IMG/VR virus record: IMGVR_UViG_3300045941_000062
Span: 1 to 36,333 of that record
Strand: one strand, 5' to 3'
DNA length: 36,333 nucleotides
Source of the DNA: a virus
The position numbers and the translations under genes are program-made. Shown here in pieces: positions 12,960 through 35,038 of this stretch. The notes beneath the pieces were generated by a model. That model saw only the letters and a program-made list of their open reading frames with translations. It was not told the origin of the DNA and searched no databases. Positions within the stretch are counted from its first letter, which is position 1. The number at the start of each line of letters is the position of its first letter.

Positions 12960-15900
12960 TGGCCAACCCCCTCGAGTGGATTGCTCAGGTACGTCAGCGC
13001 GACCTGCAGCGCCCCAGTTCGGGGGTTTCGTATTACAGCCCGGCTCAGCCGATCCGGCCAACCGGGAGCCTGGCTACCTCGGGGACAGCTAACCGCATAC
13101 TGTCCGGCGGTGCCCCACAGGTACCGGCCTACGGTGGGGGGACACCGAGCTTCCAGGGTGCTGGTCCCCAGCTGGGACAGCCGACCGAGACCCAGGTGCC
13201 CCAGCAGTTGCTCGGACCCGAGGGCCAGCCGATCACGGGGTCGGCTCCACTCCAAGGCGGGTCGCTGATCGACCAGGCGTTGGCCGCGTCCAAGCAGTAC
13301 GAGGCCCAGGCCCAGCCGCCACCAGCCGCTGGTTGGCGAGGCGTGCTCGGTACGGCGGTGAACAACCCTGTGGGCAAGGGCATCATGGGCGCCCTCAACG
13401 TGCTGGACATGCCCCGGCGGGCGGTGGTTTCCACGGTGCAGGAAACCGTGGACGCGATCAACGGTGGCGATGCCAGCTTCAGCGACTGGGCTGAGCAGTT
13501 CAACGACCCCAGCTTCGGTTTCGGCGATGTGGTCGGCTCGACCGGGAGCATCTGGGCTGATCGGCTGATCGGGCTGGCCGGTGATGTGCTGCTCGATCCG
13601 ATGACCTACGTCGGTGGCTCGGCGGTGCACGCCGGGGCTGGACGGGCGGCGCGCATCTCCGCCGGGTCGCGAGCGATCGCCGAGGGCTTCGGCGAAGACG
13701 TGTCCTCCCAGCTGGCTCGCTACGGCTACTCGGCAATGGACAACGACATGCGGGCCCAGTTGCGTCGAGCCGGGCATGTCATCGAAGACCAGGGGTGGCG
13801 CTTCCGCCTGCCCGGCCAGAAGACCGGGGTCATGATCCCCGGGACCCAGGGACTCGATGCGGCGATGGGCAGGCTCGGGGCAGGCGTCCGGGCGGGCACC
13901 TACAAGATTCCCGGCATGTCCAGGTTGCGCTCTTGGCGTACGCCCGAGGGGCTCACCGCGGCTTACGAGAAGCTGATCACCGGGCGCGGGTCGATGTCGA
14001 TCACCGAAGCGGGCGAAGTGATCAACCGCCACGAGGCCCACAAGATCGCCGCCAACACGGTGCAGGCCCGGCTCAAGCAGGAGGGCTTCAACCTCCGCAG
14101 CAAGTACACCGCCGAAGACCTGACGGCGATGATGAAGCAGGCCGAGATCGATGGCGGTACCGAGCTCAACGCCTTCTTCGAGTCGGCCGAGAAGATGGGC
14201 CAGGAATACGGCCTCTACTTCCACGGCCGCAAGAAGTACATCCCCCACCTGGTGACCCAGGACTTCGTGAAGTGGATCAATGGTGAGACTCCCTCGGCTC
14301 GAGCCTTCAAGTCCGAGCTCTCGATCGGCAAGGAGATCGAGGAAGTCTCACCGGCCCTGATGGAGCGCAAGCTCATTGCCCGCGACGAGCCCTACACGAT
14401 CATGGGCCAGAAGTTCCATGTCCCGAACGGGACCATCGATGAGTGGAACTCCGAGTTCGCTCGGCTGTTCCCCGATCAGCCGTTCAAGATGATGGACGAC
14501 AACATCGACTCCATCATGGCCCGGTACATCCTGGGCTATGCCGATGACGTCGGGGTGGTGGCGGGGGCCAAGCACCTGGTCAATTCGAAGTCCGGGCTGA
14601 CTCGTGGCTTCAACGACGAGGAGGCGCTCAAGGAAGTCATCGATGAGGTGGCCACCACCCGGATGAACGATGCCGCGGCCAACTTGCTGCGGACCCAGCT
14701 GAAGGGTGTCCAGAACGCGGCCCGCCAGATCCGCGACGACACCTTCAAGGGAGTGTCGGGGATCCAGGGCCTGCTCGGGGTGGAACTCCGCTCAGCTGTC
14801 GATGAGATCACCACCCTGTCCGAGCAGCACCGCAACTACCTCAACGATCTGCTGTTGCGGGAGGAGGAACTCGGTCAGCAGATCGGCCCGCGGGGTGTGC
14901 AGCTGCCCGAGGCCACCGGCACCAAGCCACTTGTCCCTCAGCCCACCCTCGGACCGGCGATCGGACCACCATCTTCTACTGGCGTAGTGATGACGGCTCC
15001 GCCCGAGATCCGGCTGCCCAACGGCAGGGTGATCCGGGAAGGCGGCCCGGCGTCCGCCTGGCGGCCACCCGCCCAGCGGGGCTCGATCGAAGCGGCCTTC
15101 GATGAGGCGGCAGCGGTCATCAACACCAAGATCTTGGGCTACGACCAAGAGATCGCCCGGATCAACAAGGAGATGCTGGACGCCCAGAAGGTGTACAGCC
15201 AGGTCGAGACCGCCACCCGCGGGCGGCGGATGGCCGACGTGGAGAATGTCCGCCGGGTCCGGGACAAGTGGAACGCCATCGTCCAGACGAGGGCTGCCGC
15301 CGAGCTCGACCGCAACGCCATCTACGCGATCAAGGATCGGATCGCTCAGAAGGAATTGAAGCAGTCCAAGATCCTGATGGTCCACGACAACCCGTCGATG
15401 CTCAGCCTGATGGCGGGCGAGAAGGTTCACAAGCAGCAGCCCCAGGTACCGGGAGCGGAGTACACCGCCGAGGGCAACCGGATCGTTGGATACCACCCGG
15501 TGTATGCCGAGGGCACTCGTAATCCCGACATGATCCGGGCCGACTATGACGCCCGGCGTAAGGCCGTGCTGGGGGAGAGCTCGCCCGAGACCCGGGACTT
15601 CGATGCCGAGATCCAGAGCCAGCAGGCCCAGGTCTCTCGGGCCGAGACCGAGCTCGCCGAGCAGATGGAGATCCACCGCCCGAACTTGGAGGAGGCCAGG
15701 ACTCACCTGCAAGGGATCCGCAACGAGGTGGAGGAGCTCAAGGCTCAGCGCAACTCGCTCAAGGGTGTCGGCAACACTCAAGCCCGCATCGATATCGACG
15801 CTCAGATCAAGGCGATCCAGGAAGGGCGGCTCAAGGAGGCCGAGGATCTCTACCAGCAGTTCGCCGAGCCGATCACCAGGGCCAAGGCCAACATGGAGTT

Positions 15901-18900
15901 CGCTGACAAGCGGCTGCAGACCCTGCGACGTCGGCAGGAGGAGAACGCGCTCGGCTCACCCGCTGGTGGCGGTGCCGCTCCTCGGGAGTGGCCCGAGCAG
16001 GAGCCCCTGCCGTTCACTCCCCAGCAGATGGGGCAGATGCGGGCCCAAGCGGCCAAGGACAACGCCGTCGAGCGCCAGTGGATGCGAACCCCCGAGTACC
16101 GCGAGTCCCTCGCGATCAAGGAAGAAGTTCGCCGCATCCAACTCGAGCGGATGAACGAGCAGGCGCTGCTCGACGTCAAGATGAACTCCAAGTACTCGCC
16201 GCTGGCCATGGATGGCAACGGCAACATCACCATCCCGCCCAAGGCTCGGGACCCCAAGGCCGAAGCGGTGATGGCTCAGCGAGACGAGTTGGCCGAGAAG
16301 ATCAAGATGGCTCAGGAGAGCCTGGACGCCGAGACCAATCGCTACTCCATGGTCGAATGGACCCGGCGGCCCAAGGAGCACTACGCCAAGGTCCGCCAGT
16401 ACGAGAAGGAACTGGACGGGCTGCAGGACCAGTTCAACAAGCTGAACCACGAGATCGCCGCCTACGGCTACGAGAAGTACCGGGGCACGGCGATGCAGGC
16501 GGTGTTGGATGAAGCCATCGCCCGGCAGAAGCGGATCGCTGCCATCGACAAAGAGCTCCGCCGCCGCCAGCGCAGGTTGAACCAACTCGAACGTCCGGTC
16601 AAGGCGGTTCGGGCGCGTAAGGAGGCTTACGCCCAGAAGATCGCCAAGCAGAACGACGCGATCCGCAAGAACGCCGAGCGGGCTGCGATTCCCCAGGTGC
16701 CGCGCTCGGTCCGCATCCGTGAGCAGCTGGCTTCGATCGATCGTGATGAGCAGGAGGCCCTGCGCTCGGCTCGGGCCAACTTGATCGGCTACCGCCCTGA
16801 CGTCGAAGACACCACAGTCTCGGTCCCCACCCCGGTGCGGGTGGTCCCGCTGTCGGATGACTTCCTGGTCGAGCAACGGTTCCAGGAAATGGTCGGGCCT
16901 GCCGGAACACCCCCCGGCAAGCGCGGGACCCTCCACCCCGACGACGACGCTCTGCTGCGCGACTCCTACGCCATGCTCAACGACTCCGAGTACTACAAGA
17001 TCGTGGAAGGGACCGATGATCCGATCGCCCTGCAGCACGCCCGGGCGGTGATCAAAGACATCGAGGCTCGCCGAGGTCCGGGTTACACCCGAGCTCAGCT
17101 GGCTACCGAGGCCACGCTCGATGAGTACGCCAACGAGGTGGCTCGGATCCAGCGGGCGCGGATGATCTACCCCAAGCCCGAGAAGGACACCGCTCCCTAC
17201 CTCGCTATCCACATGTCGACCCGCCCGCCGGGTGGATCGATGAAGCTGACCGATCAGGCTGAGAAGGCCGTGCAGTTCGGGAACCGCGGCCGAGATCTGG
17301 GTACCGAGTTGAAGGTGGCGGGAGCGATCAACGATCGCCAACTCGCCAGCTACGAGCATCAGCTGGCGCAACTCGAGTACTACTCCCGGCTGTACGGCGG
17401 GGACTACGGCGACGAGACCCGCCCGCTGATCAATCCCGATGACATCGATCCCAAGACCGGCAAGCCCCGGGTCATCCCCAACATCGATCCCACGACCGGC
17501 TTGCCGATGCGCGGGGCGCCTGATCCCCGCACGGCGGCGGCGTTGGAACAGGCCATCCACGACGTCAACCGCACGACGGAGTTCATGACCCGGTACGCCT
17601 CGTTCCTTGCCATGGGTGGCGAGCCTTCACCTGACCTGGGTGCCTACATCCTGGCCCAGGGTCTGCGCGACGAGGTGCGGGTGCTGGACGACCAGATCGA
17701 CAGTGTGGAGAAGCTCATCGGCGGAGGCGTCACCAAGAAGTGGGCCGCCTACGAGGCCAAGATCGCCAAGCACCAGAACGTGGTGGATGAGCAGCAGGCA
17801 ATCATCTCTCGCATCGATCGGGAGTTCGAGGAGACCGGCTACCTCGATGCCCGGGCCAAGAAGAAGGCCCAGAACAAGATGGGCGAAGCCAAGCGGTTGA
17901 TGAACGAGTTGGAGGAGCCCGACACCGGCTTCATGGATCAAGAGATCATGGCGATGCTGGACTTCGCCACCAAGCGGGTGATGGACGTGGACGATGCCGT
18001 CTCGTACCTGCGCGATGTCCGCAACCTGCGCGAGCGCATCGACTATCCCGCTCGCAGGCGAGCCGAATTGGAGCAGTACGTCCCTCGCATCGCCTCGGAC
18101 TTGCAGGAGACGAAGAACGCCATCACCCGCCGTCGCCAGGCGCTGACCAAGGCCCTCAACCGTGGCGACGAGACGGTGACCATTTCGGGGATGGCTTTCC
18201 CGCAGAAGATCAACCTCACCGTCGAGGAAGCTCAGGAGATGATCGACTCCGGGGCATACCTCAAGTCGACGGCCCAGGAAGTCCAGAAGGGAATCGACGC
18301 GGCACGCCGGGCTGGGCGCAGCCACGTGGAGATCTCCAAGTACGACCGCTACAGCGCCACGATGACCGTCGATGAGCTCGAGGATGAGATCGCTCGCCTC
18401 GAAGCCACGGTCGAGTCGGGGGCGATGACCCTCGAAGCCAACCGGCTGAAGCTGTCGGTGCTCGACGGCACCGCCAACATCGAGCGCGACCAACTCGCCA
18501 CCATCATCCAGCGGATCCACAATCCGCCCCAGCCCGACCAGCTGCAGCAGATGCGCAACGAGCTCGCTTTGATGTCAGCGAGCGACAGCGAGAGCCACCT
18601 GCGCCGAGCCGAGTTCTTGCAGCGTCAGATCGATGTGATCGAGAACCCGCCTACCGCCGAGGAGCTCGCCGAGTACACCCGTCAGTGGAAGCGGCTCGAT
18701 GATGCGATCAAGGGCTTCGAGGATTCGGTCACCACCGAGTACGCCGGGATGAAGGCGGTCATCGACAGCGGGCAGGAGTTCTTCACCCAGCTGGTCAACG
18801 GTCAGCGCTCGCCTACCCGCCAGGACATCCAGATCATGCGCGACCTGCTGGGTGCTGAAGCGGCCGACGTGGCAGACCAGTACATCCAGAACGCCAACCG

Positions 18901-21900
18901 CATCCTCAGTCAGTACGGCACCAACATGAGCCGGGAAGATCTGGTCGAGGTATTCGATTCGATCCGCCGGGTGGTGGGCGACGACTCCCTCAGCGAGTAC
19001 ATCACTCGCAACCTGTTCGGGGGGATGAGCGAGGGCGACATCATCAACGCCGACGTCTACCGCGGGGAGATCATCAACGCGATGATCGCCGCGGCCAAGA
19101 CCAAGCACTCCGACGAGATGCGCCAGTTCGCCGAGATGTTCGATCACATGGGATTCCAGGTGTTCTCCGGGCGCACGAAGTCCGAAGTCGAGCGGGACAT
19201 CAAGCTGCTCCAAGACGAGATTGCCCTCAACCCCAGCGGCGCTCCCACTTCACGCCAGGACGAGAAGATGCAGCTGCTGCAGAAGGAGCTCGTCGCCCCC
19301 GGCTCGCCGTTCACCCGCAAGACCATGTTGCAGGCGATGGGCTACAACATGAGCCGCCAGACTCTCGATACCCACCGGATGAAGCAGTTCATCATCAGCC
19401 AGTTCTCGAGGCAGGGCTTCGATCCGGTGGAGTCGTTGCGGGACAAGCTGCTCACCCTGCGGATGCGCCGTTCCCGCGTGCGCACGATGATCCGTGGGCT
19501 GGGTGGTGCGACCAACGAGCCCAAGCTGGCCAACCCCGACAACTTCTACCGCTTCATGTTCGGGGAAGCGGAGCCCAAGGTGATCGCTCCCGCCGAAGAC
19601 ACCAAGAAAGCGGTGGCCAAGTCCAAGGCGAAGAAGAAGGCTGAGGCTGCGGCGCCGCCCCCCGAGCCCGTCCCCGAGGCGGCGGTGCCGACTCCGACCG
19701 AACCCGTGGCCGAGCCCGTCACCAGCGGCAAGACCTACGACGAGTTGCAGGCGGAGATGGACGCCGTGATCGAAGATCCGAACTTGACCATGGAGGAGAA
19801 GTCCGCCCGGTTCAACGAGCTCATGGCCCAGCAGCAGAACCTGTCCCCCGCCGAGCAGGTTGAGCCGCTGCCGCCGTCACCGACCGCGCCACCCGAGCCC
19901 ACCCCGCCACCGGCTGCAGCCGCTCCGCCTGCTGGTGCGCCGCCGAAGAAGATGGCGTGGACCAACGTCACCACTGGTGGGTGGGAGACCGCTGAGGGCT
20001 ACCGGATCGTCCCGAGCCCCGAGGGCGGCTACCGGCTGAACGGACCCGCAGGCGAGGATCTCGGTGGTTTCACCAGCCCCCGCCAGGCCAAAGCCACCGC
20101 TGATGCGCATCGTTTCAGCGGTGAAACGATTCCCCCCGCGGTGCCCGAGGCAGCAGCAGCGGCCCCACCGCCGCCGCCACCACCGGAGACGCCACCAGCA
20201 GGAGCGGCAGCCCCTCCGCCTGAGGAGCCTACGCCTCCCTCGGATATCGACAAGATCGAAGCGTTCCAGCGCGGTGAGATCCCGCTCAGCGAGCTCGAGG
20301 GCCTGCCGCCAGGAGTGGGGGAGCGCCTCGAGGGTGCGATCGCCGCCGAGGCAGAGGTGCCCACCGGACCAGCGCGCCAGGAGTCAGCACGAGAGTGGCT
20401 GGTCCAGCAACAGTTGAACGAGCTCAACGACATCCAGATGATCCGCGGCGAGTTCAACGATGCCGAGCAGACGTTGTACGACAACCTGCAGGCCGAGCTC
20501 GCCCAGCTGCGTCAGGGCCGCCGGGCCGATCCGATCACCCAGCGCTACGGTCCCGAGGGCGTCAACTCACCAGAGTTCCTGGCCGAAGCCGAGGCCCGCA
20601 ACTTGTCGCCCAAGTCGTACGAGGAGCTCGTCCGCTACGAAGCTCGCCGAGCAGGGCGTCCCAACGAGGTCATCTACGACTGGGAGTCGGTGTTGTTCAA
20701 GGGCGGACCGCGCTTCGACGTGGCCCGCCGGATGCGCCGCGGTGCCGAAGGCGAGTTCGAGCGCCGGGCTGCCCAGATCTCCGGGTCCGCTGCAGTCCGG
20801 CCCTCGGGTCCGTTCACCCAGGGCGCGCTGCCCCAGCAGGCGGAGGCTGCCGCCGCCCCCTTCGCTGCTCTCGGGCGCCAGCAGGAGAAGTTGCAGGAGA
20901 TGTACGGCCGCACGGAGATGGAGCTCGAAGATCTCCACTCCGAAGCGGTGCGGCTGGCGTCCCAGGCCGAGCAGAAGGAACTGGCTGCCTCGCCAGAGGG
21001 CATCTACGGGCAGGAGTACCAGGCCGGTGTCGATTGGTTGAAGGCCCAGGACATCCGCCGCGAGGGCGAGCGAGTGCAGGAAGCGGCGCAGTCCGACATC
21101 AACGCCATGATGGTGGGCCAGTCCGAAGCCCGCCTCGAACTCCACCACGCCGAGCAGGAGTACACCCACGAACTGCTCAAGGCGGACAACGAACTCGGTC
21201 ACGTCCGCTCCCAGATCGTCGCCGCCCACAACGATGTGGCTCACCTCGACGCGGCCAAGGAGCAGTTGGAGCGGGCGATCAACGCCAGTCCGCAGACAGC
21301 GATCGAGTTGCAGAACCAGCTGAATGATCTGCGCGTCGTCAACCGGATGCGCAAGGAACTGACTGGTGCCGACGAAGCCGACATGATCTCGATCGAAGCG
21401 ATGATCGATGCCGGGCTCGAGGCCACCCGGCGCCTGCGCATCACCGAGGCCAGCGAGGGTGTGCTCGCCATGCGGCTGCGCAACTTCGAGAACGGTGCCT
21501 CGATCGTGGCCCCCCAGATGGCCAGGCGGGTGGTCGACGGGTGGAAGGAGTTGGCCAAGCAGCACCTCACGGGTGAGGACGCGGTGTACGTGGCCGATGG
21601 TCTGTCGCGGGCGCTGCACAACGCCACGGTGTCGTGGAAGGACGAGAACTTCTGGAAGCAGGTCGAGAAGTACACGGCCTTCTTCAAGACCTACGCCACC
21701 GCCACGCCTGGGTTCCACGTCCGCAACGCGCTGAGCTCGATGTTCATGAACGCCGTGGCGGGTGTGCGGCTGAAGCACACGGCTCGGGCCATGCCCGCTT
21801 GGCGGGAGTTCAGGACCAACCCGAAGCAGTTCTGGCGGGAGGCCGACGAGCAGACCCGCATGGCCTTCGCCATGGTCTTCGGGTCAGGAGCGGGCGGCCA

Positions 21901-22843
21901 GTTCATGGAGCGCGGACTCGGCACCGAAGTCACCATGGGTGGCAAGGCCTACCGGAAGTTGATGAACAACAAGATCACCGAGTGGAACAAGCGCCTCGGT
22001 GAATGGGTCGAGGGCCCGACCCGGCTGGCGATGGCGATGGACTCGGTGGACCGGGGGATGAGCCTGCACGCCGGGACCAACCGGATCACCAATTTCCACT
22101 TCAACTACAACGAAGTGAGCGGCATGGACCGGGCGGCCAAGCGGATGATCCCGTTCTGGACGTTCATGAGCAGGAACATGCCGCTGCAGATCATGCAGAT
22201 GTGGCTGCACCCTCGGGCCTACCTGCACTACCAGTCCTTGGTGCGCAACTTCTCCGAGGAAGGCGACCCGCTCACCCCGGATTACTGGTTGGCTCAGGGG
22301 GCATTCACGATGGACCCGAATGCCGCCAAGAAGGATTCTGCATGGTTCCTCGCTCCCGACCTGCCACATCTCCGAGTCTCCGAGCCATTCGTCGCGGCGA
22401 GCCAAGGGGACTGGGGCAAGGCGCTGCTGTCAGACATCAACCCGCTCATTGCTGCGCCGCTGGAAGCCTTCGGGGTGCGGCAGAAGTTCTACACGGGTGC
22501 ACCGATCGAGGGATACAGCCAACCCGAAGGAGCGATGGCGGCCTTCACCCCGATCTTCCAGATGCTCGGGGCCACCGAGACCGGCGGGACGAGCGGGGAG
22601 ACCCTGGTCCCGGAGAGTTGGCAGCACATCCTGCGCACGATGGTGCCGACCGTGGGTCTGGCTGAGCGGCTCACCTCCACCACTGGTACGAGGGCCGGTC
22701 GCCAAGGTGAGACGATCCTGCGCGCTGCTACCGGTGCACCCGTCTACAAGCTGACGCCTGAGCTCCGTCAGCAGCAAGCCCAGCGGCAGTACTTCGCGGC
22801 GAAGGACAAGCTGGAAGCCATGAAGGACCTGGCGAGGAGTTGA
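12959..22843 (+). CDS. Giant virion protein, 3294 aa
   Basis: A single uninterrupted frame of 9.9 kb, ATG overlapping the previous stop. Visible layout: low-complexity Pro/Gln N-terminus (1-110); a small-residue-rich segment with WADRLIGLAGDVLLDPMTYV (about 198-217) that could be membrane-active; a YIPHLVT motif (about 427); many long charged coiled coils (about 580-2200); an Ala/Pro-rich linker (about 2226-2428) holding a 50-residue Gly/aromatic module (about 2332-2386, GYRIVPSPEGGYRLNG); and more helices. The conserved C-terminal part has PGFHVRNALSSMFMNA and IPFWTFMSRNMPLQIMQMW (about 3063-3081). I know the 'iPF.tw..rN.Pl' pattern from other very large phage structural proteins. T7 gp16-like ejection is the best analogy by position. 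No lysozyme or transglycosylase motif was recognised. Confidence 0.88.
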   Translation: MANPLEWIAQVRQRDLQRPSSGVSYYSPAQPIRPTGSLATSGTANRILSGGAPQVPAYGGGTPSFQGAGPQLGQPTETQVPQQLLGPEGQPITGSAPLQGGSLIDQALAASKQYEAQAQPPPAAGWRGVLGTAVNNPVGKGIMGALNVLDMPRRAVVSTVQETVDAINGGDASFSDWAEQFNDPSFGFGDVVGSTGSIWADRLIGLAGDVLLDPMTYVGGSAVHAGAGRAARISAGSRAIAEGFGEDVSSQLARYGYSAMDNDMRAQLRRAGHVIEDQGWRFRLPGQKTGVMIPGTQGLDAAMGRLGAGVRAGTYKIPGMSRLRSWRTPEGLTAAYEKLITGRGSMSITEAGEVINRHEAHKIAANTVQARLKQEGFNLRSKYTAEDLTAMMKQAEIDGGTELNAFFESAEKMGQEYGLYFHGRKKYIPHLVTQDFVKWINGETPSARAFKSELSIGKEIEEVSPALMERKLIARDEPYTIMGQKFHVPNGTIDEWNSEFARLFPDQPFKMMDDNIDSIMARYILGYADDVGVVAGAKHLVNSKSGLTRGFNDEEALKEVIDEVATTRMNDAAANLLRTQLKGVQNAARQIRDDTFKGVSGIQGLLGVELRSAVDEITTLSEQHRNYLNDLLLREEELGQQIGPRGVQLPEATGTKPLVPQPTLGPAIGPPSSTGVVMTAPPEIRLPNGRVIREGGPASAWRPPAQRGSIEAAFDEAAAVINTKILGYDQEIARINKEMLDAQKVYSQVETATRGRRMADVENVRRVRDKWNAIVQTRAAAELDRNAIYAIKDRIAQKELKQSKILMVHDNPSMLSLMAGEKVHKQQPQVPGAEYTAEGNRIVGYHPVYAEGTRNPDMIRADYDARRKAVLGESSPETRDFDAEIQSQQAQVSRAETELAEQMEIHRPNLEEARTHLQGIRNEVEELKAQRNSLKGVGNTQARIDIDAQIKAIQEGRLKEAEDLYQQFAEPITRAKANMEFADKRLQTLRRRQEENALGSPAGGGAAPREWPEQEPLPFTPQQMGQMRAQAAKDNAVERQWMRTPEYRESLAIKEEVRRIQLERMNEQALLDVKMNSKYSPLAMDGNGNITIPPKARDPKAEAVMAQRDELAEKIKMAQESLDAETNRYSMVEWTRRPKEHYAKVRQYEKELDGLQDQFNKLNHEIAAYGYEKYRGTAMQAVLDEAIARQKRIAAIDKELRRRQRRLNQLERPVKAVRARKEAYAQKIAKQNDAIRKNAERAAIPQVPRSVRIREQLASIDRDEQEALRSARANLIGYRPDVEDTTVSVPTPVRVVPLSDDFLVEQRFQEMVGPAGTPPGKRGTLHPDDDALLRDSYAMLNDSEYYKIVEGTDDPIALQHARAVIKDIEARRGPGYTRAQLATEATLDEYANEVARIQRARMIYPKPEKDTAPYLAIHMSTRPPGGSMKLTDQAEKAVQFGNRGRDLGTELKVAGAINDRQLASYEHQLAQLEYYSRLYGGDYGDETRPLINPDDIDPKTGKPRVIPNIDPTTGLPMRGAPDPRTAAALEQAIHDVNRTTEFMTRYASFLAMGGEPSPDLGAYILAQGLRDEVRVLDDQIDSVEKLIGGGVTKKWAAYEAKIAKHQNVVDEQQAIISRIDREFEETGYLDARAKKKAQNKMGEAKRLMNELEEPDTGFMDQEIMAMLDFATKRVMDVDDAVSYLRDVRNLRERIDYPARRRAELEQYVPRIASDLQETKNAITRRRQALTKALNRGDETVTISGMAFPQKINLTVEEAQEMIDSGAYLKSTAQEVQKGIDAARRAGRSHVEISKYDRYSATMTVDELEDEIARLEATVESGAMTLEANRLKLSVLDGTANIERDQLATIIQRIHNPPQPDQLQQMRNELALMSASDSESHLRRAEFLQRQIDVIENPPTAEELAEYTRQWKRLDDAIKGFEDSVTTEYAGMKAVIDSGQEFFTQLVNGQRSPTRQDIQIMRDLLGAEAADVADQYIQNANRILSQYGTNMSREDLVEVFDSIRRVVGDDSLSEYITRNLFGGMSEGDIINADVYRGEIINAMIAAAKTKHSDEMRQFAEMFDHMGFQVFSGRTKSEVERDIKLLQDEIALNPSGAPTSRQDEKMQLLQKELVAPGSPFTRKTMLQAMGYNMSRQTLDTHRMKQFIISQFSRQGFDPVESLRDKLLTLRMRRSRVRTMIRGLGGATNEPKLANPDNFYRFMFGEAEPKVIAPAEDTKKAVAKSKAKKKAEAAAPPPEPVPEAAVPTPTEPVAEPVTSGKTYDELQAEMDAVIEDPNLTMEEKSARFNELMAQQQNLSPAEQVEPLPPSPTAPPEPTPPPAAAAPPAGAPPKKMAWTNVTTGGWETAEGYRIVPSPEGGYRLNGPAGEDLGGFTSPRQAKATADAHRFSGETIPPAVPEAAAAAPPPPPPPETPPAGAAAPPPEEPTPPSDIDKIEAFQRGEIPLSELEGLPPGVGERLEGAIAAEAEVPTGPARQESAREWLVQQQLNELNDIQMIRGEFNDAEQTLYDNLQAELAQLRQGRRADPITQRYGPEGVNSPEFLAEAEARNLSPKSYEELVRYEARRAGRPNEVIYDWESVLFKGGPRFDVARRMRRGAEGEFERRAAQISGSAAVRPSGPFTQGALPQQAEAAAAPFAALGRQQEKLQEMYGRTEMELEDLHSEAVRLASQAEQKELAASPEGIYGQEYQAGVDWLKAQDIRREGERVQEAAQSDINAMMVGQSEARLELHHAEQEYTHELLKADNELGHVRSQIVAAHNDVAHLDAAKEQLERAINASPQTAIELQNQLNDLRVVNRMRKELTGADEADMISIEAMIDAGLEATRRLRITEASEGVLAMRLRNFENGASIVAPQMARRVVDGWKELAKQHLTGEDAVYVADGLSRALHNATVSWKDENFWKQVEKYTAFFKTYATATPGFHVRNALSSMFMNAVAGVRLKHTARAMPAWREFRTNPKQFWREADEQTRMAFAMVFGSGAGGQFMERGLGTEVTMGGKAYRKLMNNKITEWNKRLGEWVEGPTRLAMAMDSVDRGMSLHAGTNRITNFHFNYNEVSGMDRAAKRMIPFWTFMSRNMPLQIMQMWLHPRAYLHYQSLVRNFSEEGDPLTPDYWLAQGAFTMDPNAAKKDSAWFLAPDLPHLRVSEPFVAASQGDWGKALLSDINPLIAAPLEAFGVRQKFYTGAPIEGYSQPEGAMAAFTPIFQMLGATETGGTSGETLVPESWQHILRTMVPTVGLAERLTSTTGTRAGRQGETILRAATGAPVYKLTPELRQQQAQRQYFAAKDKLEAMKDLARS
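20112..20127. repeat. 18-bp palindrome family, copy 2 (inside giant gene)
   Basis: GTTTCAGCGGTGAAAC, with flanking C and G, lies in the giant gene and is read as RFSGET in its Ala/Pro-rich linker. It has one mismatch between arms. It is the only copy deep inside the structural operon. Confidence 0.8.
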
Positions 22844-24322: not shown

Positions 24323-24613
24323 ATGCCGCTTCCGAAGCCGCCGGTCACGAACATGACGGAGTTCGTGGTCTTCGTCTTCGTCACCATCGTGGCGATCATG
24401 TTGATCGGTTCGGTAACGACGCTGATCGTTCTCTCGTTCACTGATCCAGATGGCGATCGTTCGGGGTTGGTCAACATCCTCACCGACACGATGAACACGA
24501 TCATCGGTGCACTCATCGGCTTCGTTGCCGGGAAGGGGCAAGGCCGCTCCGAAGTGCATGACGAGATAGCTGAGCGGGAGGCCCACAAGAAGGAGGATGG
24601 GTCATCGGGATGA
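24323..24613 (+). CDS. Holin-like membrane protein, 96 aa
   Basis: ATG at 24323 directly follows the endolysin stop. One clear membrane segment lies at about residues 13-38 ([24 protein letters not shown]). A second weaker one is at about 58-70 ([16 protein letters not shown]), followed by a hydrophilic charged C-terminus. Size, two-helix layout, charged tail and position after the amidase fit a class II-type holin that opens the membrane for the endolysin. The next gene also has a membrane anchor and could be a partner. Confidence 0.8.
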
Positions 24614-25305
24614 CGCCATACCAGGGAGCGGTCGCAGTAGGCGCGATCCTCGCGGTGCTAGGTGTCGGAGTGATGACCGGATTGATGGTGTCAGCATCAG
24701 AGGGGGGGGCATCGACTACAACAACAGTGGCACCGGCGATTCCCGTCCCCTCCCAAGGGCCGCTCGGTTCGCCGGGGCCACCCGGACCACAGGGAGAACA
24801 AGGTGAACAAGGCCCTCCTGGCCCTAGCGGGGCTGACGGTGATCGCGGTCCTGGCGGACCTGTGGGACGCCCTGGGCCGGTCGGTCCAGCCGGGCCCCGT
24901 GGACCCGCGGGTCCACAAGGCCCTTCCGGCGCGCCAGGCCCTGCGGGTGTTGATGGGGAAGTCGGAGCTCCCGGAGCCCCCGGAGCGCCCGGCGTCGACG
25001 GAACCAACGGGGTGGACGGAGCCCCCGGTTCACCTGGCCCACCTGGTCCCCAAGGGCGCCAAGGTATTCCGGGACCAGCAGGGTCGGATGGCGTTCAGGG
25101 GCCAGCCGGTGAGCGAGGACCAGTGGGTCCGGCTGGTGGGCCGGGTGTACAAGGTGAACCAGGCCCCCAGGGCGATCCGGGACCCCCAGGCCCCCCGGGC
25201 CCGCCAGGGGGACTCACCTGCCCGGCTGGGTTCTCACCGTCCGAGCTCACGCTCAACGCGCCGGGAGGGCAAGTGACCATGTACGTCTGCTTGGAAGGAG
25301 GATAG
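24610..25305 (+). CDS. Membrane-anchored collagen-like protein, 231 aa
   Basis: ATG at 24610 overlaps the holin stop (ATGA). Layout: N-terminal hydrophobic anchor or signal (about residues 5-27, [20 protein letters not shown]); a short Thr/Pro linker; then about 50 uninterrupted Gly-X-Y triplets (about 50-199); and a 32-residue C-terminal cap with two cysteines (LTCPAGF...TMYVCLEGG). It should form a collagen-like triple helix outside the membrane. Collagen repeats are usual in phage fibres, but here the anchor and the position after the holin suggest a lysis or cell-envelope role instead. The rival reading is a late-expressed virion fibre. The frame at 24803-25276 in the same region is only a shadow of the Gly/Pro codons. 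Confidence 0.82.
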
Positions 25306-26394: not shown

Positions 26395-26561
26395 GTGGTC
26401 TCCTCTTTCTGTGTGGTCCACCCTGGTAGGTCGGGTGGTGGTGGTGGGTTGAGACGTTGCTCGAGCAGTTCGTAGATCGCCAACAAGGCGTAGGCCACGC
26501 CAGCTGGATGTGCAGCCAGCTGACGTGCCCTAAGCGCATGGTCGCGATGAGCGCCGCTCAC
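26391..26561 (-). CDS. Small helical protein, 56 aa
   Basis: GTG at 26561 overlaps the stop of the gene upstream (GTGA), and its stop overlaps the next start (ATGA), so it fills the gap precisely. The product starts SGAHRDHALRARQLAAHPAGVAYALLAIYELLEQRL, a helical pair, and ends with a Pro-rich stretch (NPPPPPDLPGW). The competing ATG frame from 26539 overruns the next gene and gives a His/Ser/Arg-rich, non-protein-like product. No family is recognised. Confidence 0.6.
   Translation of the reverse strand: MSGAHRDHALRARQLAAHPAGVAYALLAIYELLEQRLNPPPPPDLPGWTTQKEETT
26395..26421 (-). promoter_or_regulatory. Start-associated leader repeat
   Basis: Reads GACCACACAGAAAGAGGAGACC before the ATG at 26394: a member of the shared leader family (ACA[AC]AGAAAGG, then AGACC, then the start). 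Confidence 0.5.
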
Positions 26562-27478
26562 AGATCCCCGGCGAGCAACTCACGCAAAGCGTGCAAGCTG
26601 CCCTCGAGATGAGCGATGCGCTCCTCTTTGATGTAGACCTTGTGCTCCAACTCCTCGATGGATCGTTTCAGCGCTGAAACGTTCTCGCTGGGCCCGAGCA
26701 ACTCACGGACCTTCTCGAGCACTCGCATCGCCTCGAGCCCGGCTTCGGCAGCCTCTCGTTCGACCTGAATGATGGTCGACTGCCTGCTAACCAGCTTGCC
26801 GCTGGCATTCCGCGGCTCATCGGCGGAGATGAAGGTTCGCCTGGTGCTGCCAGGCTTGGCCTTGATCGTCTTGCCCGGGATCTCACCCCGGCGGATGTGG
26901 AACTGCTGGTGAGCCGTCACACCCTTGGGGTGCTTGGCCACCAGCGGATCGTCCTGCGGACAATGAGCGCAGGCGTAGTCCTTCGTGCCGTCCGACCATG
27001 TGCGCTCGATGATCGAGTCCGAGACCTTGCCCTTCACCGTGGCATAGGGCTCCTCTGACACGATGTACGGCCCCCCCTTGGGCAGCGGCTCATCAGCGGT
27101 GATGGGTTCGATCACGGGACCGAAATCGTCGGGCAGGAAGTCTTCCACCAGGTCGTACATCAACCGGGCATGAGATCGTTCGAGCTTGGTCGTCTTGACG
27201 ATCTCATCGATCAGCTTGCGATCGATGCTCTGCCCCGGTGAGTGCACCGCGATCTGGTGAACCCAGCTGCGGAACACGTCCGACTTGATCGAGGTGTTGT
27301 CGGGCACCCGGATCTGCTTGCCATCTTCGGCGACGAGGGCCACGGGGCCGTTCTCTCGCTGTTGGATGCGCCAACCCATCGAGTTGGCGAGCAACACGGC
27401 CGCAGCCGCATCTCGTGACCGGAAATAGGTCACGTCCATGGGCCGAAACTTGGCCACTTGTATAGTTGTATCAACCAT
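26558..27478 (-). CDS. Zn-finger/coiled-coil protein, 306 aa, hypothetical
   Basis: Start ATG 27478 behind AAAGG; the longer frame begins in the upstream leader and is rejected. N-terminal domain about 10-75 (FRSRDAAAAVLLANSMGWRI, LVAEDGKQIRVPDN) resembles small phage domains of the HicA-like 'GW..v...g....l...dG..i.vP' pattern, but the match is uncertain. Residues 170-194 have C-x2-C-x16-H-x3-H (CAHC...HQQFH), a C2H2-type zinc site. Residues about 236-303 form an acidic/basic coiled coil. Palindrome copy 3 lies in the coil-encoding part, read as VSALKR. A nucleic-acid-binding or adaptor role is possible but unproven. Confidence 0.75.
   Translation of the reverse strand: MVDTTIQVAKFRPMDVTYFRSRDAAAAVLLANSMGWRIQQRENGPVALVAEDGKQIRVPDNTSIKSDVFRSWVHQIAVHSPGQSIDRKLIDEIVKTTKLERSHARLMYDLVEDFLPDDFGPVIEPITADEPLPKGGPYIVSEEPYATVKGKVSDSIIERTWSDGTKDYACAHCPQDDPLVAKHPKGVTAHQQFHIRRGEIPGKTIKAKPGSTRRTFISADEPRNASGKLVSRQSTIIQVEREAAEAGLEAMRVLEKVRELLGPSENVSALKRSIEELEHKVYIKEERIAHLEGSLHALRELLAGDL
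26665..26680. repeat. 18-bp palindrome family, copy 3 (in CDS)
   Basis: Perfect GTTTCAGCGCTGAAAC with C and G flanks, inside the - strand gene 26558-27478, where it encodes VSALKR. Confidence 0.9.
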
Positions 27479-27505
27479 GTGAATTGCCTTTCTGTTGTGG
27501 TCTGA
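27479..27505 (-). promoter_or_regulatory. Start-associated leader repeat
   Basis: Reads AGACCACAACAGAAAGGCAATTCAC before ATG 27478; contains the consensus CCACAACAGAAAGG. Confidence 0.55.
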
Positions 27506-27515
27506 TTGGTTTGGG

Positions 27516-27555
27516 GGCCCGTGAAGCGGGCGGATGACGACCCGCTCCACGGGCC
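27516..27555 (-). terminator. GC-rich intergenic hairpin
   Basis: Outer arms GGCCCGTG/CACGGGCC and inner arms AGCGGG/CCCGCT pair around a short loop. It lies between genes 27562-27765 and 26558-27478 on the - strand. There is no good U-run, so termination is only likely. Confidence 0.5.
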
Positions 27556-29031: not shown

Positions 29032-29047
29032 GTTTCAGCGCTGAAAC
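29032..29047. repeat. 18-bp palindrome family, copy 5
   Basis: GTTTCAGCGCTGAAAC, perfect core, 2 nt beyond the ATPase stop codon and just before the hairpin on the - strand. Confidence 0.9.
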
Positions 29048-29049
29048 GA

Positions 29050-30534
29050 TCAGTCCTTGCGGACCGTTCCCGTCCAGTCGCCATCGGTGTCGTACGTCGA
29101 CATGCCGTCTTCGAGGTTCTGCTGGACGGTCCGGTGGACCGCCTGGCGGACGATCGTGGAGATCTCCCCATCGATCCCCGAGCGCTCCTGTGCCTCGGGT
29201 GCGTCCTGCATCAGGTCGAACTGCGGGCGCAGGTCACCCGCGGCATAGACCAGAGCGTCGGTTCCGATCGGTCCGATCAACCCGCCGTTGGTGACGACGG
29301 AGAACCGGACTGCCCGGTCGAACACTTCCTTGACGAAGGCAGGCATGTACCCATCGCAGGCCTGGAACACCGCAGCGAAGTCGGTGTCGTCATCGAGGTT
29401 CTCGTTCCCGATGACACGACGAGCGAGATACTCGACGCCTTCCTGGTCCATCGCCCCCAGGGTGATGAGGCTGTCCATGCGACCTGGCCGCATCATCCCC
29501 TTGTGGATCTTCTCGATGTGGTTGGTGGTGAGCACCACGATGAGCGGCATCCCTTTGGCATCGATGCCATCGAAGGCATCGAGCAAGCGGCTGATCCCAT
29601 GGGGGTCATCCTTGGTCACCAGCAGGTCAGCATCCTCGATGAGGACCACGGCCGGGCCGTAGATCCTCGCCGTCATCAGCGTCGTCTGCCAGTTGTCCTT
29701 GCCAGCCCGGTTGAAGATGAAGGTCCAGTCGTACTGCTCGCAGAGCTTGGCCGTGAGGTAGGCAGCGAGCGACTTGCCCGTGCCGTAGGTCCCGGCCAAG
29801 GTGACCACGCGCTTGATCGACTGGTTCAACTCCCGCATCGCGTTGGGGAACTTGATCCCCGCCCAGATGTGGGCCTCCAAGCTCATCTGGACCTGGCGGT
29901 GGTACACCACATCCTCGAACTTGATGTGACTGGTGTCGATGAACCCCGGAGTGTCAGCCCCGGTGATCGCCTTGCCCCGATAGATCGAGCTATTGCGGAG
30001 TTCGAGCTCGATGAGATGGAACAAGCCCTCGATCACGGCGCGGTCCTTGCGACGGCACCGAGCCGAGATCTGGAACACCTGCCCCAGTTCCTTGTCCAAC
30101 GCCACATCGAGAGCGATGACGCAATCGTCCACGAAGGGCAGGAACATCTGCCCCCACGGGACGGTCAGCGTCTCGTTGACCCCGACTTCGATTTCGATCA
30201 ACTGCGGCGGGCGGTCGCCGAAGATGGAGCGGATCGTCCGGCCCATGGTGAAGCCGAAGTGTTCCTTGATCACCCGAGCCGTGGCCGCAGCCCCGTCGAA
30301 GGGACGGAACTTGAAGGTGCGGGTGACGGTGTAGGCCTGCTCCTCGTCCTGCACTCGCTTGTTGAGGAAGTCAGCCGCTTCCTTCAAGCTCATGCGGTTG
30401 GGGATCGTGAAGTGATCGCCCCACGTGATGTCATCCTCGGACGCCAATTGGCCACCCAACTTCGCCAGTTGTTCGAGAACTTCCTTGGCGATGGCCGCTT
30501 GGCTCTTTTCTACTGACCTAGTTCGTGTCGCCAC
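29050..30534 (-). CDS. Classical AAA+ ATPase, 494 aa
   Basis: GTG 30534 follows GAAAGGGG by about 9 nt; the longer frame runs into the intergenic hairpin and is rejected. The N-terminal 200 residues are an unrecognised alpha/beta domain. The AAA module has Walker A GTYGTGKS (248-255), Walker B VVLIED (296-301), sensor-1 at N338 (LTTNH) and the SRH motif MMRPGRMD (347-354) with arginine-finger candidates R349/R352. The RPGRxD form is typical of the classical clade (FtsH, Cdc48, proteasomal ATPases), so it may unfold or remodel protein. No protease or zinc motif is fused, so a partner is needed. The - strand block upstream encodes a zinc protein, a small membrane protein and an SPFH protein. 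Confidence 0.88.
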   Translation of the reverse strand: MATRTRSVEKSQAAIAKEVLEQLAKLGGQLASEDDITWGDHFTIPNRMSLKEAADFLNKRVQDEEQAYTVTRTFKFRPFDGAAATARVIKEHFGFTMGRTIRSIFGDRPPQLIEIEVGVNETLTVPWGQMFLPFVDDCVIALDVALDKELGQVFQISARCRRKDRAVIEGLFHLIELELRNSSIYRGKAITGADTPGFIDTSHIKFEDVVYHRQVQMSLEAHIWAGIKFPNAMRELNQSIKRVVTLAGTYGTGKSLAAYLTAKLCEQYDWTFIFNRAGKDNWQTTLMTARIYGPAVVLIEDADLLVTKDDPHGISRLLDAFDGIDAKGMPLIVVLTTNHIEKIHKGMMRPGRMDSLITLGAMDQEGVEYLARRVIGNENLDDDTDFAAVFQACDGYMPAFVKEVFDRAVRFSVVTNGGLIGPIGTDALVYAAGDLRPQFDLMQDAPEAQERSGIDGEISTIVRQAVHRTVQQNLEDGMSTYDTDGDWTGTVRKD

Positions 30535-30564
30535 GTACTGGCCCCTTTCTTCTGTTGTGGTTCC
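30535..30564 (-). promoter_or_regulatory. Start-associated leader repeat
   Basis: Reads ACCACAACAGAAGAAAGGGG before GTG 30534; a variant of CCACAACAGAAAGG with an inserted GAA. Confidence 0.5.
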
Positions 30565-30607
30565 TGAGCCGGTGTGCCCAGGGGGGTCAGGGACACCGGA
30601 GAACGCC

Positions 30608-30645
30608 GACGAGCCCGCCATGCCAGCAGGCATGACGGGCTCGTC
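30608..30645 (-). terminator. Strong intergenic hairpin before the ATPase gene
   Basis: Arms GACGAGCCCG-CATGCC and GGCATG-CGGGCTCGTC pair with one mismatch around loop AGCA. Palindrome copy 6 lies just before it in the - transcript. No U-run is present, so it may attenuate or protect mRNA. Confidence 0.6.
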
Positions 30646-30652
30646 CAACAAA

Positions 30653-30668
30653 GTTTCAGGGCTGAAAC
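30653..30668. repeat. 18-bp palindrome family, copy 6
   Basis: GTTTCAGGGCTGAAAC between the stop of gene 30679-31068 and the hairpin. The centre is GGGC on the + strand, GCCC in the transcript sense, as in copies 4, 8 and 10. Confidence 0.9.
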
Positions 30669-30678
30669 GATTCGGGGT

Positions 30679-31068
30679 CTAGGTCACCTCGATTTCCACA
30701 GCCTCGTACTCGACTTCGTTGTCATCGAGATCGGGGTTGTCCTCATCGATCAAGACATAGAACGTGCCGCCGAAGCCCCCTCCTTCTTCGAGCATCTCTT
30801 TGACCACGCTCTTGACTTGCTCGGAAGTCGGCACTTCCTCCATTTCTGTGGTCGACTGCACCTTCACGTTCAGGTTGAACGAGAAGGTGTGCCGGTCCAG
30901 GGCTGGGGCTACGGAAACTTCCATCGTCTGCTGGCAGTAGTTGCATTGGTAGCCATCGGTGACCCGAGTCACGCTCAGATGTGGACAAAGATCGGCCAAC
31001 ATCATCTCTCTTTCTGGATGCGGCGGGTTGCATCCGTCGCCGTAGTAATGGGTTCGACCATCACTCAT
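30679..31068 (-). CDS. Zn-binding protein with acidic tail, 129 aa
   Basis: ATG 31068 is placed 6 nt after GGAGG. An internal in-frame start (MMLADL, after AAAGAGAG) is also possible. Cys/His pairs: C13/H17 (DGCNPPHP), C28/H30 (LCPH) and C42/C45 (CNYC) could bind one or two zinc ions. Residues about 60-95 form a beta segment (FSFNLNVKVQ) and a helix (SEQVKSVVKEML). The C-terminus is very acidic (DEDNPDLDDNEVEYE). It is coupled to the 53-aa membrane protein gene upstream. No family is recognised. Confidence 0.7.
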   Translation of the reverse strand: MSDGRTHYYGDGCNPPHPEREMMLADLCPHLSVTRVTDGYQCNYCQQTMEVSVAPALDRHTFSFNLNVKVQSTTEMEEVPTSEQVKSVVKEMLEEGGGFGGTFYVLIDEDNPDLDDNEVEYEAVEIEVT

Positions 31069-31222
31069 CGTCATCCTCCAACATTCGATCGGCCCAACGG
31101 TCTCGTCGGTCCTGCAACTCGAGCTCGTGCTGGCGTCGGTCGCGGGCCTGATAGGCCCGGACCAACACGACGAACGAAATGAAAACGACAACGATGGCCA
31201 GGATGGGAACAGCCACCCTCAT
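31061..31222 (-). CDS. Small membrane protein, 53 aa
   Basis: ATG 31222 overlaps the stop of the SPFH gene by 4 nt (ATGA). N-terminal membrane helix at residues 2-22 (AVPILAIVVVFISFVVLV), then a charged cytoplasmic helix rich in Arg and Asp/Glu (QARDRRQHELELQDRRDRW) ending in an acidic tail. Coupling to an SPFH protein suggests a membrane partner. The function is unknown. It is too short to appear in simple ORF lists. Confidence 0.65.
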   Translation of the reverse strand: MRVAVPILAIVVVFISFVVLVRAYQARDRRQHELELQDRRDRWADRMLEDDDE

Positions 31223-32268
31223 GGCTGCGTTCCCGGCGTCACCGCGACCACTGGTGGCGTGGCCGTGAACACGTCCGGGAAGTCGTTGCCTTCGGCTGCC
31301 TTGACCAGCGCACAGTCCTGATCGAGCTCGGTCAGGTACTCACACCAGGCGTAGGTGTTCGAGGCATCAGCCGCCGCCACTCGACCCTCTTGCTCGGCGA
31401 TCTGCTCCCGAGCGTTGGCCGCTTCCTCTGCGGATTCGGCTTCGATGGTCAACTGGTCGGCCACCTCTCTCGCCTTACGAGCAGACTCGGTAGCCACGGC
31501 TATCTCGTTGTCAGCCTCAGTGCGGGCGCGCTGCGGGCGAGCGATCAACTCCCGGTCGCCCTCTGACATGGTGGGCTCGGGTAGTACCACGCTGATCCGT
31601 CCGCACGCCTCCGTACCTTGGCCGTAGCGGTATGTCGGGGCACAGAAGTACCGGCCGCCCAACTGCTGAGCCAGCGTCTCGGTCAGCACCCGCCCAAACT
31701 CGGTGGCTGCCTCGTCTCTGACCCCGCCCACGTTCAACGCCACCGCTGTTGGGTCGAGCGACTGCAAGACCCGCGGGGCTACGTCTCTCACGACGGGACC
31801 CACCCTCACGTTGAGGAATTGGCTGACCCATCGTGAGTCGTCGGCGTTGAAGTCGGTGGCATCGAGTGGCCGTAGGTGCTGCTCGATCAGGTCACACCCC
31901 GCTGGCTTGTCGTCATTCATGACCGATGAAATCGTGAACGTCAACGAGGGCGAGAACGTGAGGCTGATCCCACGCACCGTGACCACGACGTCAGGCAAGC
32001 CGTCTGACTTGTCGTACTGCCTGACGTTGACCGGCACCTGATACGTGGAGCCCCCGACGTTGATGTGGGTGCGCCCTGCGCCAGGCGGGACGGCCTTCTC
32101 GAATCCCTTCGAGTCGAACATCCCGCCCTTGTAGACGCAGGTGAAGTGACTGGCGTCCGGCGAAGTTGCCGAACGCCAGTACACACAGCCACCGATCAGC
32201 CCCGTGAACACCGCGAGGATCACGAAGATCGCGATCCCGGTGATGAGGTAGAGCTTGGTGTCTCTCAT
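31219..32268 (-). CDS. Band-7/SPFH (prohibitin-like) membrane protein, 349 aa
   Basis: ATG 32268 directly follows the previous gene's stop. N-terminal membrane anchor at residues 6-28 (LYLITGIAIFVILAVFTGLIGG); SPFH-like region about 35-245, with beta strands INVGGSTYQVPVNVRQYD, VVVTVRGISLTFSPSLTFTI, then DSRWVSQFLNVRVGPVVRDV; a long Ala/Glu/Arg coiled coil (about 240-305) containing ARTEADNEIAVATESARKAREVADQL; and a short Pro-rich end. Layout (anchor, SPFH, coiled coil) fits prohibitin/stomatin/HflK. 'Band-7-like membrane protein' is a known actinophage annotation. Cellular relatives form ring complexes that control FtsH-type AAA+ proteases, notable here because an AAA+ gene lies one gene block downstream. 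Confidence 0.8.
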   Translation of the reverse strand: MRDTKLYLITGIAIFVILAVFTGLIGGCVYWRSATSPDASHFTCVYKGGMFDSKGFEKAVPPGAGRTHINVGGSTYQVPVNVRQYDKSDGLPDVVVTVRGISLTFSPSLTFTISSVMNDDKPAGCDLIEQHLRPLDATDFNADDSRWVSQFLNVRVGPVVRDVAPRVLQSLDPTAVALNVGGVRDEAATEFGRVLTETLAQQLGGRYFCAPTYRYGQGTEACGRISVVLPEPTMSEGDRELIARPQRARTEADNEIAVATESARKAREVADQLTIEAESAEEAANAREQIAEQEGRVAAADASNTYAWCEYLTELDQDCALVKAAEGNDFPDVFTATPPVVAVTPGTQP

Positions 32269-32490
32269 TCAGCCGCAATTCATCTGTGGAGCGATGCACT
32301 GGACGGTCGTGTCCACCCCATCACCCTTGGCCGTGGACCAGGCGATGAGGATGGCGACGAACAGGGCGACGAGGAGCCCGGCAGCGATGCCATCACGTGG
32401 CCCGCTGGCTTTGTCGCCTGCGGTGTTGCGCAGGCGCAGCCCCTCACCCCCATTCGGTCGCTCGTAACGGTCATCGAAATCATTCATCAT
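32269..32490 (-). CDS. Small membrane protein, 73 aa
   Basis: ATG 32490 overlaps the HNH gene's stop; ATG 32487 is an alternative one codon later. Hydrophilic N-terminus (NDFDDRYERPNGG), one membrane helix at about residues 34-53 (GIAAGLLVALFVAILIAWS), and a short outer tail with two cysteines (QCIAPQMNCG). It lies directly upstream of the SPFH gene and ends where that gene starts, so it may work with it. The function is unknown. Confidence 0.65.
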   Translation of the reverse strand: MMNDFDDRYERPNGGEGLRLRNTAGDKASGPRDGIAAGLLVALFVAILIAWSTAKGDGVDTTVQCIAPQMNCG

Positions 32491-32879
32491 TTCTTCTTTC
32501 TGTTGGTGTTGCCGCTCTTTCTGGCGGCGCTGATCTTGGCTTTGGTTTCGGCCGACAAGCGTTGGCCCTTCCTGGCTGCGCTGATCTTGGCCTTCGTTGC
32601 TGCTGAGAGGGGCCTCCTGGGGGCCCTCATCTTTGCCTTGTGCTCGTCTGACTCCGGTTTCCCTTTCTGGTGGTAGCTGGTGTGGCATTTCAGATGGCCG
32701 CATCGCAGGTTCTCCAACGAGTTGTTGCTGCGATCCTCGTCCACGTGGTGGATGATCCCATCCAATGGCCCACGACCAACGAGGGTGGTTACTGGTTCAC
32801 CACACCATTCACATGGATGAGGCAGCGAGTTCGCCGCCAGCCATATGTCCCGGTAGATGAAGCGCGAATCACGTTTCAT
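32487..32879 (-). CDS. HNH endonuclease with NUMOD3-like repeats, 130 aa
   Basis: ATG 32879 follows GGGGAAG; the 32960 start would lie inside the upstream gene. The HNH core spans residues 23-70: CEWC zinc pair (C23/C26), IIHHVDEDRSNNSLENLRC (H44/H45, N52/N53, N57) and CGHLKCHTSYH (C60, C65, H66). Behind it are two NUMOD3-like DNA-binding repeats, SAATKAKISAARKG and SAETKAKISAARKS, so it resembles free-standing homing endonucleases. It overlaps neighbours by 11 nt and 4 nt without disrupting either. No intron is evident. Confidence 0.9.
   Translation of the reverse strand: MKRDSRFIYRDIWLAANSLPHPCEWCGEPVTTLVGRGPLDGIIHHVDEDRSNNSLENLRCGHLKCHTSYHQKGKPESDEHKAKMRAPRRPLSAATKAKISAARKGQRLSAETKAKISAARKSGNTNRKKK
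32491..32512 (-). promoter_or_regulatory. Start-associated leader repeat (inside HNH 3' end)
   Basis: Reads CACCAACAGAAAGAAGAA before ATG 32490 and is at the same time the last codons (NTNRKKK) of the HNH gene. Confidence 0.45.
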
Positions 32880-33144
32880 CCGCTGCTTCCCCCACCAAAC
32901 GATCCTTGGTGTGATCGCCGTAGGGGCCCATGTAGATCCCGACAGTCGGTCGTTCAGCATCCGACTGCGGGTACAGGTAGATGTACAAGGGTTGCTGTTC
33001 TTGGTTCAGAAACTCGAGCCGCCATCCCACATACGGATAGCCCTGATCATGGTTCCCGGTCCATGGCATATAGGACCATTCGCCAGCAGCACCGATATGC
33101 GAGATTGCCTGCAACACGTGTCTGACCTTGCCCAGGTCGCTCAC
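32869..33144 (-). CDS. Hypothetical protein, 91 aa
   Basis: GTG 33144 overlaps the previous stop (GTGA), indicating coupling. The product is mixed: a helical N-terminus (VRHVLQAISHIGAAG) and beta-rich, aromatic middle (YVGWRLEFLNQEQQPLYIYLYPQSD, GIYMGPYGDH). No motif is recognised. The stop lies 10 nt inside the next gene's start. Confidence 0.65.
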   Translation of the reverse strand: MSDLGKVRHVLQAISHIGAAGEWSYMPWTGNHDQGYPYVGWRLEFLNQEQQPLYIYLYPQSDAERPTVGIYMGPYGDHTKDRLVGEAADET

Positions 33145-34971: not shown

Positions 34972-34987
34972 GTTTCAGGGCTGAAAC
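34972..34987. repeat. 18-bp palindrome family, copy 8
   Basis: GTTTCAGGGCTGAAAC, part of a 30-bp block (34971-35000) identical to 36282-36311. It sits between the terminator hairpin and the start of the gene at 34949. Confidence 0.9.
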
Positions 34988-34996
34988 GAAAACGAC

Positions 34997-35034
34997 AAGT
35001 AGGCCACCTTCCCGGCTGGGAAGATGGCCTACTT
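34997..35034 (-). terminator. Strong rho-independent-type hairpin
   Basis: Arms of 17 nt (AAGTAGGCCA-CTTCCC with GGGAAG-TGGCCTACTT) and loop GGCT, one mismatch. On the - strand it is followed by GTCGTTTTCGTTTC, a broken U-run that leads into palindrome copy 8. It ends the block 35039-36113. Confidence 0.75.
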
Positions 35035-35038
35035 GGGG

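Follow-up and report, generated by a model that had tools for sequence, protein, structure and literature searches.

The window analysed here, the whole stretch of 36,333 bases, is the complete IMG/VR record IMGVR_UViG_3300045941_000062, a linear fragment from a podovirus-like phage, an uncultivated virus of bacteria that its relatives make likely to be an actinophage. We focused on two of its genes, encoding a 349-amino-acid (aa) membrane-anchored protein and an AAA+ ATPase. By sequence comparison the former was accepted as a divergent member of the SPFH/Band_7 proteins, and the latter is a new member of the known phage family phrog_10440. A preliminary description of this DNA had suggested that the two act as one assembly, an SPFH ring controlling the ATPase as HflKC controls FtsH. 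Our survey of related phages showed that SPFH and ATPase genes come and go independently and are occasional, not obligate, neighbours. In the window they are probably two separate accessory genes, near neighbours by chance, each with its own role.

Identity of the SPFH protein and the ATPase

Both open reading frames (ORFs) are present as the preliminary description gave them.

31219-32268, minus strand: 349-aa protein assigned here to SPFH/Band_7 as a divergent member; anchor at the N terminus, SPFH domain at about 30-235, coiled coil at about 236-314
29050-30534, minus strand: AAA+ ATPase, 494 aa, GTG start; N-terminal domain of about 200 residues plus AAA module; soluble; phrog_10440

Direct scans of Pfam, NCBIfam and PHROG gave no family for the 349-aa protein, which did not reach the gathering score of PF01145, and a PF01145 search aimed at this record gave no match. 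Nothing was found by tblastn in phages and plasmids or when collections of viruses and genomes were scanned with the single sequence, and the canonical phage Band_7 profile gave no score above shuffles. A loose genome search with the protein, however, retrieved the actinobacterial protein L117 of Virgisporangium ochraceum at E = 0.01, and L117, L123 and L125 all exceed the Pfam Band_7 cut-off. A bridging profile was built from these three proteins and the phage protein L127, leaving the window protein out. It gave the window protein 17.9 bits, while none of 5000 block shuffles that preserved the composition of the anchor, the middle and the coiled coil exceeded 8.2, and hhalign gave a probability of 94% (E = 1.4e-7, residues 24-213). 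The SPFH protein was the sole match of this profile among the window ORFs, and its alignment with the bridging relatives is collinear end to end. V45, G48, G49, F51, D52, P62, G65, P79 and R83 are invariant in four sequences, and the match lies in the SPFH domain, outside the coiled coil.

We accept the SPFH assignment on account of this homology, bridged through intermediates and beyond the shuffles. The preliminary description had made the same call, naming failure in a Band 7 profile search as evidence against it; the profile libraries do miss 31219-32268, but the bridged profiles through actinobacterial Band_7 intermediates overturn that result. The absence of direct family matches, and scores against canonical phage Band_7 proteins that only equal shuffles, would also fit a protein that is not SPFH and shares merely a membrane helix and an alanine- and glutamate-rich coiled coil with the family. 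We consider this very improbable, since the match to the actinobacterial subfamily carries the nine invariant residues within the SPFH domain and beats shuffles in which helix and coil composition are preserved. The single-sequence structure model is a weak point of the assignment: it is poor (predicted local distance difference test, pLDDT, 45), its best-modelled part being helices 236-314, and the fold was not seen directly. A profile that includes the window protein found L127 in ATPase-bearing phages at E = 3e-79, a value that is not independent proof, as much of the score may reflect resemblance to other rows of the profile. No relative was confirmed in IMG/VR with the four-row SPFH profile. 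The case shows phage SPFH proteins extending past the reach of Pfam, NCBIfam and PHROGs, so that their number is underestimated.

A 153-aa phage protein (L011:2102-2560) apparently combines a membrane helix with an SPFH-type C-terminal coiled-coil tail without an SPFH domain. It scores 15.5 bits with the Band_7 profile (best shuffle 3.2) and its gene lies 4.4 kb upstream of the one for the closest homolog of the ATPase.

The identification of the second protein as an AAA+ ATPase was confirmed by its Walker A motif (GTYGTGKS, residue 248), Walker B motif (VVLIED, residue 296) and second region of homology (TNHIEKIHKGMMRPGRMD, residue 337), and by a PF00004 match of 42.5 bits. A plausible ribosome site precedes the GTG start. 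The phrog_10440 profile matched at E = 2.1e-81 and covered residues 70-513 in the longer ORF, near full length. The family has members in 68 GenBank phages and in 208 IMG/VR contigs, and full-length homologs, N-domain included, occur in Gordonia phages, Mycobacterium abscessus prophages, Schitoviridae, Delftia PhiW-14 and others. One homolog (L067:7001-8397) has two in-frame stops under table 11, reflecting stop-codon recoding, a frameshift or decay.

The AAA sequence is closest to CDC48/VCP. An AlphaFold model built from an alignment of 49 sequences reached a pLDDT of 89, and its best PDB matches in Foldseek were Bcs1 (ranks 1-9, nearly full length, E = 9.6e-16), at low template modelling scores (TM-scores) of 0.30-0.47. 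The next matches include B. subtilis YjoB, and the viral library yielded giant-virus Bcs1-like proteins. The N-domain profile found no sequence relative in the PDB and no Bcs1 chain, and no Bcs1 family is among the Pfam matches listed for the 49 family members. Given the modest TM-scores and an N-domain without a PDB sequence relative, we use 'Bcs1-like' as a lead at the level of the modelled fold, not as Bcs1 membership; it may help to understand a phage ATPase family that is widespread but unexplained. A membrane helix is missing from all 49 sequences, in which no hydrophobic segment exceeds 1.6, and the HExxH zinc protease motif is absent from the window ATPase, in line with the earlier remark that it lacks a protease domain. 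Most likely the ATPase assembles into a ring in the cytosol and acts on protein substrates by remodelling or unfolding them.

Distribution and arrangement of the two genes

About 80 ATPase-bearing IMG/VR records were searched with Band_7 and divergent SPFH profiles, a few of them in one search only. An SPFH gene of any kind was present in about 14 of the 80, a figure without a matched background (a random-contig control of SPFH prevalence gave 3 hits), and none was detected in about 66, an upper bound because many records are fragments and the first search pass overlooked some SPFH genes. The SPFH profiles detected none in G332, which is the closest of the relatives with long contigs (its terminase is 73% identical, its ATPase only about 35%), and none was found in the L007 record, which has the ATPase. 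In the GenBank phages W01 and W06, tens of kilobases separate the two genes, which are also far apart in G043, G301, G302 and G309, at least three of which resemble M. abscessus prophages. We conclude from the SPFH-less ATPase records, G332, L007 and the separation in W01 and W06 that the genes are gained and lost independently. The preliminary description had proposed checking whether the neighbourhood is conserved and had itself regarded independent gain or loss in relatives as evidence against the pair; the pair is not conserved, and its joint reading loses ground accordingly. The reverse test, for an ATPase near Band_7 genes, covered only 10 loci and gave one hit, a phage already known to carry the ATPase. 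MW202803, a complete phage that is more distant, had no Band_7 match; its 'ATPase-like protein' is a different ATPase and was rejected as a homolog, since blastp gave no hit between it and the ATPase of the window.

Besides the fragmentary records, other observations weigh against two unconnected genes. An SPFH gene lies within 3 kb of the ATPase gene and on the same strand in five records (G000, G311, G312, G317 and G327), and the five within this distance compare with 1.6 expected under random placement (p = 0.013 with the window, 0.04 without it). Both genes are on the same strand in 10 of the 13 SPFH-bearing records tested. The excess leaves room for a link between ATPase and SPFH protein; it is weak, as the null is a generous one that ignores the clustering of accessory genes in phage genomes. 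The SPFH proteins neighbouring the ATPase belong to different subfamilies.

Around the two genes, the window holds the following features.

32487-32960, minus strand: HNH endonuclease with NUMOD3 motifs, by family matches; its stop and the 72-aa gene's start overlap
32269-32487, minus strand: 72-aa one-helix membrane protein; stop abuts the SPFH start (TGAATG)
31061-31222, minus strand: 53-aa membrane protein with a single helix; ATGA overlap between its start and the stop of the SPFH gene
30679-31068, minus strand: 129-aa protein whose Cys/His cluster looks by eye like a zinc ribbon; overlaps the 53-aa gene at its start
30653-30668, unstranded: copy of the palindrome GTTTCAGNNCTGAAAC, upstream of the ATPase
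30607-30645, minus strand: strong hairpin (stem of 17 bp) in the gap that separates the zinc and ATPase genes; resembles a terminator but has no U tract
29032-29047, unstranded: copy of the palindrome GTTTCAGNNCTGAAAC, immediately downstream of the ATPase

The 53-aa membrane protein and the zinc protein between the two genes, and the mini membrane protein upstream, were thus found as previously described. Family searches yielded just a weak PspB-like match for the 53-aa protein, and Pfam, NCBIfam and PHROG searches no family for the 129-aa protein. From the HNH gene through the 72-aa, SPFH and 53-aa genes to the zinc gene, each junction overlaps or abuts (ATGA or TGAATG type), and for this reason the five genes look like one translationally coupled cassette. 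A 144-bp gap containing a palindrome copy and the hairpin separates the zinc gene from the ATPase gene; the stretch 30600-30690, which holds the hairpin, has a folding z of -5.1. The cassette overlaps, the gap, the hairpin and the palindromes on both sides of the ATPase gene make the SPFH cassette and the ATPase appear to be separate expression units. A second strong hairpin (34996-35035), with 18 pairs and a T-rich tail, adjoins the palindrome copy at 34972 in a layout resembling the ATPase upstream region.

Proposed roles and rival explanations

The N terminus of the SPFH protein is short, with R2 and K5, and is followed by a helix at about residues 8-27 (hydropathy 2.57 at residue 8) and a Cys-rich domain. 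By eye, LIGGC at residues 24-28 looks like a possible lipobox, LIGG followed by C28. The relatives L009 and L028, the latter from an ATPase phage, start like lipoproteins, and lipoprotein annotations exist for some phage Band_7 genes. In HflKC the SPFH domain lies outside the cytoplasmic membrane. Taken together, the N-terminal features, the lipoprotein-like relatives and the likeness to HflKC suggest that the SPFH domain of the window protein is probably outside as well. The N terminus would anchor the protein in the host cytoplasmic membrane, by a plain helix or a lipid anchor, and the protein would form a ring or dome by analogy with HflKC and prohibitins. Most likely it is an envelope-side accessory scaffold whose targets would be membrane domains or envelope proteins of the host; it could, for instance, work on host FtsH from outside or block superinfection. 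Its gene was probably gained as part of the HNH-to-zinc cassette.

As a more specific role, the SPFH protein could imitate host HflKC or prohibitin and tune host FtsH from outside the membrane, without involvement of the phage ATPase. The SPFH homology, the lipoprotein-like N terminus of L028 in an ATPase phage and the comparable role proposed for SPFH proteins as HflKC imitators in Bruynoghevirus-related phages (PMC8540360) argue for it; prohibitin-family genes have also been reported in HF1-like haloviruses (PMC7230728). SPFH proteins serve many other roles, and we hold this one to be a minor, though reasonable, possibility.

A phage-made HflKC-FtsH-like assembly, in which an SPFH membrane cage recruits and controls the phage ATPase, is unlikely. 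The two genes are 688 bp apart on one strand, other phages show the weak excess of nearby SPFH genes, L073/G312 has a Band_7 gene 178 bp downstream of its ATPase gene, and in G317 an SPFH gene lies about 0.7 kb upstream of the ATPase gene. The ATPase, however, has no membrane helix (0 of 49 family sequences) and no protease motif, the SPFH domain is probably on the other side of the membrane, and the genes lie in apparently separate units. Most ATPase phages, with G332 among them, have no detected SPFH gene, and the nearby SPFH genes come from differing subfamilies. An ATPase that is soluble and has no part outside the cytoplasm could not be enclosed in the way that HflKC encloses FtsH, and the mechanism put forward in the preliminary description is not supported. 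A looser link may exist, made by the helix proteins or by the short stretch of the SPFH protein that would lie in the cytoplasm. It is also conceivable, if quite unlikely, that phages have repeatedly and independently placed different SPFH proteins beside a Bcs1-like ATPase for cooperation, the scaffold gathering envelope substrates and the cytosolic ring pulling or remodelling them as a protease-free counterpart of HflKC-FtsH. We know of no earlier phage analogue of HflKC-FtsH, and such a paired machine, if real, would be the first; the present evidence opposes an obligate pair. Two separate accessory genes remain the reading that we favour.

Repeated palindromes and comparison with known systems

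The palindrome GTTTCAGNNCTGAAAC has 10 sites with up to 2 mismatches in the window, against 0.02 expected.

6042, 20112, 26665, 28343, 29032, 30653, 33533, 34972, 35998, 36283: GTTTCAGNNCTGAAAC sites, up to 2 mismatches
26558-27550, minus strand: single-zinc-finger, coiled-coil protein, 330 aa

In relatives the repeated palindromes are different ones, unrelated to it: CAGCTACANNTGTAGCTG in L007, GCTGCACGTGCAGC in L038, ATCCGGANNNTCCGGAT in L065, GTTTCTANNNTAGAAAC in L056 and ATTCAACNGTTGAAT in L067. Among 88 loci, a palindrome family of at least 4 copies was found in 6 of the 8 with a zinc-finger homolog and in none of the 80 without (Fisher 5e-8, with a threshold set after the first cases, differing locus lengths and some loci sharing a record or lineage). 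The simplest reading is that the zinc-finger protein and the palindrome are a candidate regulator and its fast-changing operator, which co-diverge.

Elsewhere in the window, a 3294-aa ORF in the structural region (12959-22843, plus strand) is related to a giant protein of MW202803 annotated 'chromosome segregation', and a collagen-like protein with a G-x-x repeat (24610-25305, plus strand) has counterparts in L007 and L030. The short IMG/VR contigs L129, L130 and L131 have an identical terminase, and two of them also have identical or nearly identical further structural proteins; they probably represent the same phage population.

Among known systems, the window SPFH protein resembles actinobacterial Band_7 (PF01145) proteins such as L117, and the phage proteins L127 and L128, in its N-terminal anchor, the GG.FD...PG motif, the order of SPFH domain and coiled coil and a similar C-terminal tail. 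It differs from them in its identity of only about 20-24%, in escaping the Pfam model, in its seven Cys and in a longer coiled coil. The 'Band-7-like membrane protein' of Streptomyces, Mycobacterium and Gordonia phages, for which one query drew matches in 311 GenBank records with E values of 1 or less, is likewise a phage-encoded, anchored SPFH protein but represents another subfamily, against which the window protein does not exceed shuffles.

The window ATPase shares full-length similarity, N-domain included, at 29-49% identity with the phrog_10440 AAA-ATPases of Gordonia Ronaldovirus, M. abscessus prophages, Schitoviridae and Delftia PhiW-14; these have no conserved neighbours in common with it, and an SPFH gene is usually not nearby. 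Bcs1, the mitochondrial translocase of the folded Rieske protein, gives its best PDB fold matches, at low TM-scores, but the window ATPase has no membrane helix and its N-domain shows no sequence relation to that of Bcs1. The likeness to HflKC-FtsH consists of SPFH homology on one side and an AAA module on the other, whereas the window ATPase is soluble and without a protease, and SPFH and ATPase are not a conserved gene pair.

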